Both the position numbers and the translations under genes were made by a program. From Natrinema caseinilyticum (GTDB lineage Archaea > Halobacteriota > Halobacteria > Halobacteriales > Natrialbaceae), in contig NZ_CP100445.1 of the NCBI RefSeq assembly GCF_024227435.1, positions 1 through 64,000 of the forward strand: a DNA stretch of 64,000 nucleotides, in the 5' to 3' direction. Below the pieces are notes generated by a model, which saw only the letters and a program-made list of their open reading frames with translations, was not told where the DNA came from and did no database searches. How positions within the stretch are numbered: the stretch's first letter is position 1; every line of letters begins with the position of its first letter. Below, piece after piece: positions 2,128 to 6,715 of this stretch.

Positions 2128-3906
2128 TCACTGTCTGACCCGGAGGCGCCCCTTCTCGTCGTATCGGAACCCGGCCGTTTCGAACGCCGACCGTGCGGCG
2201 TCCACGTCTACTTCGCCATCAGTCCCCAGAAACGGTGTTTCGGGGTCGCCATCGTCCCACTCGAGGCTTTCGGGGACCCACTGTTTGGTGACCGGTGTTG
2301 CGATGGGCCGTGCCTTTCCGTGAAACACGTTTTCGACCAGCCATTCCTTGTCTAGCAACTGTGCGATGACGAGCCGGAACCGCGGATTGCTAAACGGCGC
2401 TTTGCGAGCGTTGAACCCGAGAAAGTAAAACGTCCACGACGGCGACTCGAGTAACCGACTGGTCTCGGACATCTCGATTCCGTCGACGACGTTCGATTCC
2501 AGAGACGAACTCGTGACGTCTGCGATGTCGTTTCCGACGGCACTGATCGCCGTCTTGCTGCTCGGGGTGATCCCGACGGTGAACGCGTCCACGGTCGGTT
2601 CCGGAAGATCGACGTCGGATCTGAGCGTGAAGTGGGTTCCGAAGCGTTCGAGCGTGAGTTGATCGCCTTCCGTCCGTCCCGTAAACTGATAGGGGCCGCT
2701 TCCGATCGGTGGAACGTTGTTCGTGACGACCGCTTTCGTGGTTCCCTGGGCGAGGCTGGCGCCGCCCGGTCCCATCGCGTCGGTAGCTCGTTCGCGCCAG
2801 ACGTGAGCAGGGAGTATGGGGACGAGAAAGGCTCGTTCGCCGACCGCTGGACTGGTTTCGACAGTGATCTCCAGGCGAGTGGGACTCCGGATCGCGACCG
2901 TTTCGACCGCCTCTACCTGCCCTCGATACCGGGGTGCTGGTGTGTCGACTTCGTGGCTCCCGAGGGACATGTCTCGAAGGAACCGGTACGTAAACCCGAC
3001 GTCGGCGGCGGTTAGCGGCCTTCCGTCGTGAAACTCGCACCCGTCTCGGAGACGGATATCCGCCGTTCGTCCGTCCCACTCCCACGACTCGGCGAGCCAC
3101 GGTCGAATGTCCCCGTCTGGATCGTCCGTTGCAAGCGAGTCGTACAGTAATTCCGTGAACGTACCCCGACCGCGGTACCCGACTGCGAGTGGGTTCAGGT
3201 TCTCGGTCGGTCTGGCATCCGTATGGGTCGCGCGAAGCGTTTCGACGCCCGCGGCCGGGTCGAGGCCGAGGTAGCCGCGCCGCGTCGCAGGGTGGCCGTT
3301 GCCCCACCCGTCGAACCGGTCGGTTCTGACGACCCGGTGTTCTTCCGGAACGCAGATCGGAACGAACGGTTGGACCGTCGCGATCGACTCGAGTGCGTCC
3401 GTGACTGCTTCGCGGCGGTCTTCCCCTTCCAAACGGCGTTGCTTCTCGAGAAAGGCGTCGACGGTCAGGTTAGTGAACCCGAACGGATTTTGCCACCCCG
3501 ATTCGTCGGCGTACAGCGAGTGCAGGGCCTGATACAGAAAGTCCGGATCCGTTCCACCCGGATGTCGACCGATGCAGACGTCGAAATCGTGGTCGTAGAG
3601 CACTGTCTGGAGGAAATCGATACCTGAACGGACGTCGAAGGAAACGTCGATCCCGACCGTCTTGAATATTCGTTCCAGCTCGTTTGCGATTCGAATACCC
3701 TCTCTGTCGCTGTCGGCGGGAAGCGTCGTGATGGTCAGCGAGAGTTGTTTGATGTTGTTGCGGGTCACGATATCCCGGAGCCGACGAATGCAGCCGCTGG
3801 TCGAAGCTGTCAAACCGGTCGTCGCAGCCAACATGGCCCGACGACTGACGGTACTGCCGTCAGCGTCGCGGTTGCTCCGTTTTCGGGCAGCCCGTCGTCC
3901 GTTCAT
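2128..3906 (-). CDS. Family-5 (DppA/OppA-like) solute-binding lipoprotein, circularly permuted
   Basis: Extracytoplasmic binding protein of peptide/nickel-type ABC importers. The N terminus has a twin-arginine signal (RR at 22-23) and lipobox TSGC with Cys39, so it is exported folded and lipid-anchored. The domain order is unusual. Residues about 53-200 (starting LSLTITTLP, with DPDFLYQALHS and ending RTDRFDGWG) look like the normal C-terminal lobe of this family. Residues about 215-592 (NLNPLAVGY, PWLAESWEW, GCEFHDGRPLTAADV) look like the normal N-terminal part, and the protein stops at AGFRYDEKGRLRVRQ where the family usually continues. No permease or ATPase genes are adjacent. A paralogue lies at 4934-6715. 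Confidence 0.88.
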   Translation of the reverse strand: MNGRRAARKRSNRDADGSTVSRRAMLAATTGLTASTSGCIRRLRDIVTRNNIKQLSLTITTLPADSDREGIRIANELERIFKTVGIDVSFDVRSGIDFLQTVLYDHDFDVCIGRHPGGTDPDFLYQALHSLYADESGWQNPFGFTNLTVDAFLEKQRRLEGEDRREAVTDALESIATVQPFVPICVPEEHRVVRTDRFDGWGNGHPATRRGYLGLDPAAGVETLRATHTDARPTENLNPLAVGYRGRGTFTELLYDSLATDDPDGDIRPWLAESWEWDGRTADIRLRDGCEFHDGRPLTAADVGFTYRFLRDMSLGSHEVDTPAPRYRGQVEAVETVAIRSPTRLEITVETSPAVGERAFLVPILPAHVWRERATDAMGPGGASLAQGTTKAVVTNNVPPIGSGPYQFTGRTEGDQLTLERFGTHFTLRSDVDLPEPTVDAFTVGITPSSKTAISAVGNDIADVTSSSLESNVVDGIEMSETSRLLESPSWTFYFLGFNARKAPFSNPRFRLVIAQLLDKEWLVENVFHGKARPIATPVTKQWVPESLEWDDGDPETPFLGTDGEVDVDAARSAFETAGFRYDEKGRLRVRQ

Positions 3907-3936
3907 CTCGTACGTTGCCTGTAGTTACCTACCGCG

Positions 3937-3949
3937 ATATAACAGTATT
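3937..3949 (-). promoter_or_regulatory. TATA/promoter element of the first binding-protein gene
   Basis: On the minus strand this reads AATACTGTTATAT, ending 31 bases upstream of the start codon. The same element, 12 of 13 bases identical, stands at exactly the same distance before the paralogous gene (6746-6758). TTATAT is a good TATA box; the conserved upstream half could be the BRE or an operator. Confidence 0.65.
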
Positions 3950-4076
3950 TTGCTCTCCGGAGATCTGGGTCCGTCGACGACTCAGCGTCGTTCGTGTGCC
4001 GATCGGACGTCCCCATGTCGGAAAGAGCCGGACGACGGATCGGACTCGACCGGACGGGAAACCGCCGCCGGTGTGA

Positions 4077-4928
4077 TCAATCGTGTTCCTGTCCCCAGGG
4101 GATTCGGTCACCGAATTGTTCGGATAACTCCGCCAGTGACCAGCGATCGACGAATCGGTCCGAAAGAGAGACACAGAGGGCAGCGAGCAACAGGCCGGCG
4201 GTAACGTCTATGCCCCAGTGAATCCCGAGGTACATCGTGGAAATCGCGACGCTGGCCGCAAGAACGACCGCGACGGGGAACCACTTTGGAAACGCCGAGC
4301 GCGTCATCCAGGCGAACGTCGCGACGGTGGCCGACAGCGATGTGTGCAACGACGGAAACACGTTCGTGTTACTGTTCACCTCGCTGGTGAGGTACTGATA
4401 CTGTGGATTCGTATCGTACAGCATCCGCTCCATCAGTTCGGCGGGCATCAGGTTCCGAGGACCGTACGCGATGATGAAAATGTACAACACGAGCCCGATC
4501 GCGTAGTTGAGCGCGTAGGCGGTCAACAGTCGACGGAAGACCCGCGTATCGGAGAGCGTAAAGTACGCGATAACGGGGAATATCAACAGGAACGTGTAGC
4601 CGTAGACGTAGATCGTCGAGAAATACGCGTTCGTCTCGGCCGTCTGTATCGACTGAAAGATCAGAATGAACTCCCCCTCGACGTTGTAGAACGTCGATGT
4701 CAGGTGGATTCCGATCTCACGCGACAGTTTCGGCGCCGTCTGCCTGGCGACACGATTGATCAGCAATACGATGAGCAACACGACGATTACGGGACCGGCG
4801 GTCCTGAGTCTGCTTCGCCACTCGGCTCGAGTCTGTGCGAGCCGTTCGCGACCGACAAAGACGGCGATAGAGAGCGGCAGCAAGATTACGATAACGGTGA
4901 CGAGCTGTGTCAGCACCTCGGCTAGCAT
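4077..4928 (-). CDS. PAP2/Aur1-like membrane phosphatase or inositolphosphotransferase
   Basis: Integral membrane protein of the PAP2 superfamily. The 283 residues carry about six hydrophobic segments. The phosphatase motifs are visible as FPSLHTSLS (motif C2, around residue 190) and MYLGIHWGIDVTAG (motif C3 with the catalytic His and Asp, around 235). The long N-terminal half resembles the Aur1/inositol phosphorylceramide synthase-like branch more than small PAP2 enzymes. The substrate is likely a lipid or isoprenoid phosphate, by inference. Its start lies only 5 bases after the stop of the binding-protein gene at 4934-6715, so the two are probably one transcript. Confidence 0.85.
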   Translation of the reverse strand: MLAEVLTQLVTVIVILLPLSIAVFVGRERLAQTRAEWRSRLRTAGPVIVVLLIVLLINRVARQTAPKLSREIGIHLTSTFYNVEGEFILIFQSIQTAETNAYFSTIYVYGYTFLLIFPVIAYFTLSDTRVFRRLLTAYALNYAIGLVLYIFIIAYGPRNLMPAELMERMLYDTNPQYQYLTSEVNSNTNVFPSLHTSLSATVATFAWMTRSAFPKWFPVAVVLAASVAISTMYLGIHWGIDVTAGLLLAALCVSLSDRFVDRWSLAELSEQFGDRIPWGQEHD

Positions 4929-4933
4929 CGCTT

Positions 4934-6715
4934 CTAGTAGCCCCCAAGCAGTCGTCCGTTATCATCGTAACGGAAGCCTGCCCGCTCGAACGCCTTTTTG
5001 GCCGCTTTGACGTTGAGCGTTCCGTTCGAACCGACGAACGGCGTTACCGGGTCCTCGCCATCCCACTCGAGGTCGGACGGTACCCAGTCGCCGGAAACCG
5101 GCGTTGCTGTGGGTGTCGCGTTTCCGTAGAACACGTCCTCGACGATCGCGTTCTTGTCCAGCAACTGCGTGATGGCCCGGCGAAAGTGGGAGTTGCTAAA
5201 CGGCGAGTTTCGAACGTTGAACCCGATGTGGTAGAACATTCGGGACGGGGATTTGAGCTGTTCGATCGTCGAGGAGTCCGGAATCGCGCCCAGGGAGTAC
5301 GCACCGAGCATCGAGGCCGTCACGTCCGCACCGCCGTCATCGATGCGCCCGATCGACGAGGCGCTCCCCGGGTCGACGGTGAACCGCAGTTCCTCGAGCG
5401 TCGGTTCGGGCAACTCGACACCGGCTCGCAACGTGAAGTGATCGTCGTAGCGCCGCAGCCGAAGCGACTCGCCTTCGGTCCGAGTATCGAACTGGAACGG
5501 GCCGCTACCGACCGGTGGCACGTTGTTATCAGTGACGACACTCCACCGTCCCTGCGGAGCGGTAAACTCGCCGCTGACGGCGTGTTGATTGACCCGCTCG
5601 CGCCAGATGTGCGCCGGCAGGATCGGCACGGTAAGCGCTCGTTTAAACGGTTCCCGGCCGCCCGTCACGGTGAACGTTAGTTCGTAGTCGCTTTCGATCG
5701 TGATCTCGTCGATCACATCGACATGGCCCTGATACCGCGGCGCTGGTGATTTCAGGGGCGCTCGTCCCAGCGACGTATCTTCCAGGAATCGATAGGTGAA
5801 CGCGACGTCGTCGGCTGTCACCAGTTCACCGTCGTGGAACTGACAGCCCCGTCGGAGCGTCACCGTCGCCGTGTGCGTCGATTCGCTGGTGTCCGCCGAC
5901 TCCGCGGGTAGATCCCACGATTCGGCCAGCCACGGGGTCACGTCGCCTTCGTATTCGGTTCCCAGCGAGTCGTAGAGCAGATCGATCACCATCCCGCGTT
6001 TCCGAAACGTCGACGAGAGCGGATTGAGATTCACCGTCATCCGACTGTTCGTAACGAGCGCGTGAAGCCGGGTGATGTCGTCGGCCGGCTCGAGCCCGAG
6101 ATAGCCGTAGCGGGTCGCGAGGCGACCGTCCTCCCAGCCGTCGAACCGATCCGCTCTGGCGACGCGATACTCGTCGGGGAAACAGATCGGTTCGAACGGC
6201 TTCTCCTGAGAAAGCCCCCGTAACACCCATTTGACGTCTTCCGTACGATCCTCGCCGTCGGTTTGGCGCTGTTCTTCGAGACGGGTGTCGAAAGCCATGT
6301 TGGTGAACCCGAACGGGTTCTGCCAGCCTGCTTCGCTGGCATACGTAGAGTGGAGGGCCTCGTAGAGGAAATCCGGATCGTAGTCCGCCGGGTGGAGGCC
6401 GACGTACAGGTCGAAGTCGTGGTCGAGCAGCACCGCTTCGAGTAGTTCCGACCGCGACCGCATGTCAAGCGCGACGTCTATTCCGACCTTCTCGAGACGT
6501 TCCTCGAGACGGCGCGCTATCTGGACGTTCTGTCTGTCAGCATCTGCAGGAACCGTAGCTATGGAGAGCGATAGCTGATCGGTCGTGCTGTGGTTGACGA
6601 CGCTTCGAACGCGGTCGATACAACCGCTCGTCGTGATTGCGGCGCCTGCGGCGCCGGCTGCGAGGAACGAGCGTCTGCTGACGCTGTCCTCAGATGGAGT
6701 GGGGTTCCAATTCAT
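4934..6715 (-). CDS. Family-5 solute-binding lipoprotein, circularly permuted (paralogue)
   Basis: Paralogue of the gene at 2128-3906, 593 residues, alignable along its whole length. Twin arginines at 14-15 and a lipobox TTSGC with Cys32 predict Tat export and lipid anchoring. As in the paralogue, the segment normally C-terminal in DppA/OppA proteins comes first (LSLSIATVP, DPDFLYEALHSTY, ending RADRFDGWED at about 190). The normal N-terminal part follows (VNLNPLSSTF, PWLAESWDL, GCQFHDGELVTADDV), and the chain ends AGFRYDDNGRLLGGY. It is probably cotranscribed with the PAP2 gene. No transporter subunits are adjacent, so it may share permeases encoded elsewhere. Confidence 0.88.
   Translation of the reverse strand: MNWNPTPSEDSVSRRSFLAAGAAGAAITTSGCIDRVRSVVNHSTTDQLSLSIATVPADADRQNVQIARRLEERLEKVGIDVALDMRSRSELLEAVLLDHDFDLYVGLHPADYDPDFLYEALHSTYASEAGWQNPFGFTNMAFDTRLEEQRQTDGEDRTEDVKWVLRGLSQEKPFEPICFPDEYRVARADRFDGWEDGRLATRYGYLGLEPADDITRLHALVTNSRMTVNLNPLSSTFRKRGMVIDLLYDSLGTEYEGDVTPWLAESWDLPAESADTSESTHTATVTLRRGCQFHDGELVTADDVAFTYRFLEDTSLGRAPLKSPAPRYQGHVDVIDEITIESDYELTFTVTGGREPFKRALTVPILPAHIWRERVNQHAVSGEFTAPQGRWSVVTDNNVPPVGSGPFQFDTRTEGESLRLRRYDDHFTLRAGVELPEPTLEELRFTVDPGSASSIGRIDDGGADVTASMLGAYSLGAIPDSSTIEQLKSPSRMFYHIGFNVRNSPFSNSHFRRAITQLLDKNAIVEDVFYGNATPTATPVSGDWVPSDLEWDGEDPVTPFVGSNGTLNVKAAKKAFERAGFRYDDNGRLLGGY

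Follow-up and report, generated by a model that had tools for sequence, protein, structure and literature searches.

Locus and gene content

The window analysed here is a stretch of 64,000 nucleotides from Natrinema caseinilyticum (contig NZ_CP100445.1, positions 1 to 64,000). Close to its left end, three genes are read from the minus strand in the order P0002 (6715–4934), a gene of the PAP2 superfamily (4928–4077) and P0001 (3906–2128), the PAP2 gene starting 5 bases past the end of P0002. P0001 and P0002 are paralogues, and the open reading frames (ORFs) of both are intact and open over their full length. Both specify solute-binding proteins of family 5 (PF00496, the family of DppA and OppA) in which the C-terminal-type (C) block stands in front of the N-terminal-type (N) block. 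The features of the locus are:

2128..3906, minus strand: P0001 (paralogue A), 592 amino acids, predicted circularly permuted family-5 solute-binding lipoprotein
4934..6715, minus strand: P0002 (paralogue B; the same as L008), 593 amino acids, predicted circularly permuted family-5 solute-binding lipoprotein
3790..3846, minus strand: twin-arginine motif and lipobox of P0001, residues 21–39, SRR...SGC
3262..3753, minus strand: moved, C-terminal-type block of P0001, residues about 52–215 (phmmer against the PDB, hidden Markov model (HMM), shuffles, block model)
2131..3243, minus strand: N-terminal-type block of P0001, residues about 222–592 (Pfam, HMM, 1dpp_A 1–347)
6620..6676, minus strand: twin-arginine motif and lipobox of P0002, residues 14–32 (sequence; Pfam TAT_signal E 0.0076, below cut-off)
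6095..6580, minus strand: moved, C-terminal-type block of P0002, residues about 46–207 (HMM, shuffles)
4937..6082, minus strand: N-terminal-type block of P0002, residues about 212–593 (Pfam, HMM)
4077..4928, minus strand: PAP2_3 superfamily membrane phosphatase-like gene between the paralogues (Pfam PF14378 59.2 bits, PF01569 45.7 bits)

In an alignment of permuted relatives R22, R23, G38 and C39 (P0001 numbering) are invariant in 42 of 42 sequences, which we take to be the twin-arginine translocation (Tat) lipoprotein pattern with its lipobox.

Order of the blocks

Pfam matches PF00496 to residues 267–585 only of P0001 (146.3 bits) and 259–587 only of P0002 (168.2 bits; gathering cut-off 32.4); the alignment ends at profile position 283–284 of 368 in both, and the front parts are unmatched. 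Separate HMMs for the N and C blocks were built from the genome's own six normal family-5 proteins, which were split after the AGY helix, ahead of the strand that follows it. The C-block HMM matched residues 75–201 of P0001 and 60–190 of P0002, and the N-block HMM residues 234–586 and 225–543, respectively (open-frame numbering). C stands before N in the two proteins and their orthologues, and N before C in normal proteins. Against the normal C-block HMM the moved blocks scored 52.7 (P0001), 56.2 (P0002) and 91.8 bits (P0003, a third permuted protein of this genome); of the 2000 shuffles made of each block, 1289, 1634 and 1828 received a score from the program, the best reaching 8.0, 6.9 and 7.6 bits. 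The N-block HMM gave −2.6 and −3.7 bits for the moved blocks of P0001 and P0002. When P0001 was searched against the PDB with phmmer, residues 55–142, 198–328 and 374–484 of 5u4o corresponded to its residues 235–320, 400–538 and 69–180.

Every fifth rotation of the mature proteins was scored against a full-length HMM built from 29 normal haloarchaeal proteins. P0001 scored 146.4 bits unrotated and 199.9 bits when rotated by 165–175 residues, and P0002 156.3 and 211.3 bits, respectively, each rotated protein giving a single near full-length alignment (HMM about 64–69 to 522–523 of 545), and the best rotation of three normal controls was 0 or at most 12 residues off. P0001 and P0002 score above the Pfam threshold and possess both blocks, in an order other than the canonical N then C, and are therefore a permuted variant rather than regular members of PF00496.

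Predicted structure

The AlphaFold2 model of P0001, for which 42 permuted sequences served as input, has a predicted local distance difference test (pLDDT) value of 85.1 and a predicted template modelling (pTM) score of 0.82. Using VIA-align, its residues 222–592 were placed on residues 1–347 of DppA (1dpp_A; Z 20.3, root mean square deviation (rmsd) 3.3, 325 aligned); the best row for the whole model was 4oet_A (Z 23.1, rmsd 3.7, 324 aligned). The front block, modelled alone, places P0001 48–188 on 1dpp_A 336–478 (Z 7.9, rmsd 4.7, 133 aligned), and all 50 of the best listed structures are family-5-type binding proteins aligned on their C-terminal range. Another structure comparison returned no match to the front-block model reaching E 0.001 (best 2.1e-3), and the matches of this model were used as support only. 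Combined, the two 1dpp_A ranges account for almost the whole of DppA, with the order of its two parts exchanged. The type II two-lobed fold is found in the predicted models. The best 50 listed structures for the whole model are likewise all family-5-type, and Pfam assigns PF00496; the missing cluster B rows are no proof against a cluster B fold.

A first-pass annotation of the stretch had described the two genes as circularly permuted family-5 lipoproteins which begin with the second block (residues about 53–200, taken as homologous to the C-terminal lobe) and share one joint. The permutation is borne out by the order of the block HMMs, the gain on rotation and the predicted structures, the homology by the C-block HMM, the 5u4o match and the shuffles, and the joint lies at HMM column 386/387 in both paralogues. 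The sequence check proposed there, run as a rotation against the normal family, gave one near full-length alignment, and the structure check, run blockwise on DppA, gave the swapped order over nearly the whole of DppA. Neither of the outcomes named as contrary to the idea, an unrelated extra domain or a front part that lacks homology to the C-terminal lobe, appeared.

Distribution of permuted relatives and the cut site

The permutation is wider than the window pair, and the first-pass annotation underrated its extent: it occurs in many relatives, in bacteria too, and goes back to several independent events. In the genome itself PF00496 is matched ten times, in nine proteins, of which six have the normal order and three are permuted, the third permuted one being P0003 (L005, L041; G000:C1 about 3139260–3141100) with a DppB-type permease gene directly after it. 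Both window paralogues are present in 25 of 25 genomes of the genus that were searched (own included; the second copy is in two pieces in two of them), paralogue A being matched over near the whole query length in each. Since the cut is the same in both copies, both occur in all searched genomes of the genus and the permuted clade is far wider, the permutation predates the duplication, as had been proposed in the first-pass annotation.

A scan of named genomes gave 73 loci from many genera, all haloarchaeal by title, and the ORFs with both blocks above threshold in these loci are C–N without exception (111/111). All fetched loci together hold 174 distinct permuted ORFs versus 62 normal ones, counts which are not prevalences, the 73 loci having come from a search with the window subfamily. 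In the search of the phylum, junction-crossing matches occurred, among the matches listed, in at least 22 of 33 genomes of the same order or closer and in four others (G219, G159, G151 and G197). The bacterial search covered plasmids, where tblastn revealed single-piece junction-crossing matches in alphaproteobacteria; the five proteins checked (from Maritalea, Microvirga, Roseomonas, Ketogulonicigenium and Nitratireductor) are C–N by HMM, and four of them lie in annotated ATP-binding cassette (ABC) operons, the Microvirga record being unannotated. For the Nitratireductor protein (WP_206544944.1) versus AppA (1xoc) the corresponding ranges are 22–345 with 202–529 (110.0 bits) and 375–495 with 44–168 (35.4 bits). 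Judged by eye, the alphaproteobacterial members have a signal peptide without a lipobox and look soluble. No solved permuted member was found among the 60 PDB chains listed, the best stretch of each being the normal N-terminal part.

The cut lies at HMM columns 385–389 in 159 of 173 mapped permuted ORFs (the truncated ORF L055 was left out). That of P0003 lies at column 360/361, about 26 HMM positions earlier and before the helix. L184, a permuted protein considered further below, is cut between AGYSE and KLKIELWW, in the same loop as the main group. Its normal relative L211 reads ...AKQLLSQAGYSESN, then KLKLELWWTPTHYGDTEKD...; the permuted L184-type protein, past its lipobox and linker, begins at KLKIELWWTPTHYGDTEKD and finishes at ...AKEYLKKAGYSE, and the joint of the former C- and N-ends reads ...FRYYLVYSEEQKDTITIGVTDK.

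Three further ORFs were noted. L183 (and L190:5733–7496) is permuted, has by eye a signal peptide and a PGF-CTERM-like tail, no lipobox, and sits beside ATPase, DppC-like and DppB-like genes. L236:5296–7662, a binding-protein-like ORF of 789 amino acids, has swapped HMM pieces and is cut at quite another place; by eye its tail is PGF-CTERM-like, and importer-like genes follow it. It is weak against the normal HMM and a doubled copy was not joined into a single alignment, so that a permutation with another cut is suggested and the protein was left out of the five events counted below. In L048:8217–12224, an open frame of 1336 amino acids, a long front part precedes a permuted binding protein.

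Number of origins

Trees were calculated on re-ordered (N then C) alignments as IQ-TREE quick trees without bootstrap, each row carrying its block order as a label set before tree building. The 89-row tree (33 permuted, 56 normal) and the 39-row tree each contain five order changes, all five forced by starred branches. Five permuted groups were recognised: the main clade, in which the window proteins stand with the alphaproteobacterial ones (98, Shimodaira–Hasegawa-like approximate likelihood ratio test, SH-aLRT); the P0003 group; L087/L208, grouped with the normal L086/L188; L183, next to the normal L225; and L184–L186, from three genomes of the same phylum, inside a normal clade. L184 shares 76–81% identity over the rear part and 75–85% over the front part, in swapped order, with the normal L211, L212, L213, L218 and L220; as judged from these sequences, L184–L186 represent a recent natural circular permutation.

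A single ancient permutation behind all permuted family-5 proteins, their scattered positions being due to tree error or to reversals, is very unlikely, even though one cut is common to most of the mapped ORFs, haloarchaeal and alphaproteobacterial rows share one well-supported clade, and in a tree with seven rows added (five of them bacterial) starred branches force four of the five order changes instead of all five. To revert, a protein would have to be permuted a second time, the P0003 cut is a different one, and L184 is closely similar to its normal relatives. Approximately unbiased (AU) tests on 39 chosen rows (16 of the 33 permuted and 23 of the 56 normal ones, bacterial rows left out) likewise rejected one clade of all permuted rows (log-likelihood lower by 730, p-AU 1.1e-8), as well as the union of the main clade with the P0003 group (p 3.4e-5), with L087/L208 (8.1e-60) or with L183 (1.1e-5), that of the P0003 group with L087/L208 (6.0e-7) and that of L183 with L184/185 (7.6e-7).

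The loop that joins the AGY helix to the strand after it is probably a permutation hot spot, with at least five independent events (four at the loop or within a few positions of it, one about 26 positions before), one of them common to haloarchaea and alphaproteobacteria and one recent (75–85% identity). One permuted lineage of haloarchaea may have given up ABC import and entered the service of a PAP2 membrane enzyme.

Gene neighbours

Several permuted groups stand beside DppB, DppC and ATPase genes (e.g. L053, L056, L059–L061, L194, L195, L198 and L202–L208), so permutation is compatible with ABC import. The window subclade (100 in the tree with the bacterial rows) has a PAP2 gene directly behind, ABC genes being absent nearby; adjacent permease and ATPase genes, found with other permuted groups, are lacking at the window pair. 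For 121 permuted ORFs with a locus no shorter than 7 kb, a sample biased to the window subfamily, PAP2 is adjacent in 88, DppB/C is near in 18 and neither in 15, several of these last being the second copy behind PAP2; DppB/C was found within 6 kb of none of the 88 PAP2-linked ORFs. Among 28 chosen loci of the window subfamily the PAP2 cluster occurs in 27; the other large clusters, where inspected, are frames overlapping these two genes, and the rest are confined to nine loci or fewer.

The middle gene, whose link with the pair escaped the first-pass annotation, scores above the Pfam cut-off for the PAP2 superfamily and contains PSxH. This motif is present in all 105 distinct homologues and G-x-H-[WFY]-xx-D in 96 of them. 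No sequence relative of the gene was found in the PDB at E 0.01, and the open literature searched yielded nothing on PAP2 together with solute-binding proteins in haloarchaea.

Other neighbours were also recorded. On Haloferax gibbonsii plasmid pHG2 (L251) a permuted protein and PAP2 occur near an annotated phosphoglucosamine mutase, an aryl-sulfate sulfotransferase and a DegT aminotransferase. In L191 a DppB–DppC–ATPase cluster diverges from a permuted protein of the L184–186/L191–L193 type. M28 peptidase genes adjoin the permuted-protein operons of L248, L249, L250 and L252, four of six plasmid records (L246–L250 and L252), the operon of L249 also containing a hydantoinase gene and that of L250 a racemase gene; these neighbours are hints of an uptake of peptides or amino-acid derivatives. 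In the window itself, nucleotides 16–1281, on the opposite strand and upstream of the pair, specify an AAA ATPase with a weak match to the proteasomal ATPase OB domain (PAN-like).

Interpretation and alternatives

Taken as a whole, the data are best explained if P0001 and P0002 are natural circular permutants of the family-5 fold (DppA/OppA, cluster C, type II), which we regard as very probable. Some results weigh against this. For two of the eight permuted proteins put to the rotation test the score hardly rose (L058, 175.7 to 176.2 bits; L088, 169.8 to 170.0 bits), although the separate block HMMs still give C then N in both. The front block modelled alone is of low confidence (pLDDT 63.1, pTM 0.47), its top Z of 8.1 is in a range, near 8, that is weak by the tool's own yardstick, and the structure aligners are sequential, the blocks having been compared with DppA separately. 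An unrelated extra N-terminal domain on a protein of normal order with a truncated C-terminus would agree with Pfam, which places PF00496 in the rear part and finds no match to it in the front part; this reading is highly improbable given front blocks that score far above their shuffles with the C-block HMM, the single alignment obtained on rotation, a predicted fold of the front block that fits the C-terminal range of DppA, and close normal and permuted pairs elsewhere (L184 versus L211 and others) that are unambiguous. An assembly error, frameshift or decayed gene that mimics a permutation can be practically dismissed: no point in its support was found, both ORFs are open throughout, paralogue A is kept in every searched genome of the genus and the same order recurs in the 174 distinct ORFs from many genera.

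In a natural permutant of this kind the chain would have been opened in the loop which leads from the helix ending in AGF/AGY to the next strand of the second lobe, and the former C- and N-termini would be joined via a few residues. The product is predicted to fold into an ordinary two-lobed binding protein holding its ligand between the lobes, and it would be exported as a lipoprotein whose lipid anchor is attached to the second lobe rather than to the first. The swapped order would most likely have arisen by in-frame tandem duplication (N–C–N–C), after which the leading N and the trailing C block were lost and signal peptide and linker kept. In-frame double family-5 proteins of the order N–C–N–C do exist (L240:2114–6859, a frame of 1582 amino acids; L242:3310–6387, 1026 amino acids), and these are the intermediate expected for duplication and trimming.

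The function of the window pair can be proposed with less assurance. They may bind a small extracellular ligand and have the PAP2 membrane enzyme as their partner in place of a dedicated ABC importer, in which case they would present or sense the substrate or product of that enzyme; this tentative proposal is preferred because of gene order, which is all that the PAP2 linkage consists of. About as likely, with a chance somewhat short of even, they are ordinary orphan binding proteins whose ABC importer is encoded at another locus, and the PAP2 gene lies beside them incidentally: permuted relatives of the same clade sit in complete ABC operons, and additional DppB-type permeases are found next to other binding proteins of the genome. 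The PAP2 adjacency is, however, kept across haloarchaeal genera, and ABC permease genes are absent near those genes. The Asp which we take to be the ligand of the peptide amine in DppA is Gly in P0001 and Ala in P0002 (it is kept in L183–L186), so that the window pair may bind something other than a peptide, a further point to be set against the assignment.

The swapped order explains the cut-off domain that domain searches report. A very common family is seen to have been permuted several times at nearly one site, and it contains natural proteins that are 75–85% identical and differ in chain order; such close pairs make the effects of permutation on folding, anchoring, ligand affinity and importer coupling directly testable. 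Sensor design could make use of the cut loop as a site that tolerates permutation. In the PAP2-linked lineage there are signs of a binding protein that acts outside ABC transport.

Comparison with known systems

To our knowledge, one natural circular permutant has been published among binding proteins, in another cluster. This is TpMglB-2 (Tp0684), a cluster-B ABC binding lipoprotein of Treponema pallidum, whose circular permutation was established by a crystal structure and which has relatives in other bacteria; its authors proposed the names 'type Ic / cluster Bc', considered tethering as a possible reason, and found the permuted part poorly conserved in sequence (PMC4990184). The statement in the first-pass annotation that no description was known holds for family 5, for which no natural circular permutation was found in the open literature searched (at the level of titles and abstracts, with most subscription papers outside it), and fails for binding proteins in general on account of TpMglB-2. 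Natural permutation in binding proteins is therefore known; its occurrence in family 5, the recurrence near one loop, the spread over two domains of life and the PAP2-linked lineage appear to be new within that literature.

TpMglB-2 resembles the window pair in being a binding lipoprotein that is permuted relative to its own family. Its sugar-binding fold is that of cluster B (type I), with the cut placed in the N lobe, and that of the window family is probably of cluster C; family 5 differs from it in the clear homology of both blocks, in several events and in soluble-looking alphaproteobacterial members, which call tethering as a general reason for permutation into question. The middle gene is akin to the PAP2_3 superfamily (PF14378) by its score above the Pfam cut-off. 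With DppA, OppA, AppA and NikA (PF00496, cluster C, type II) the pair shares homology of both blocks, the same predicted fold and export, and its relatives serve DppBC-type ABC importers; unlike them, the window pair has its blocks swapped, its anchor on the second lobe and PAP2 instead of ABC permease genes as neighbours.

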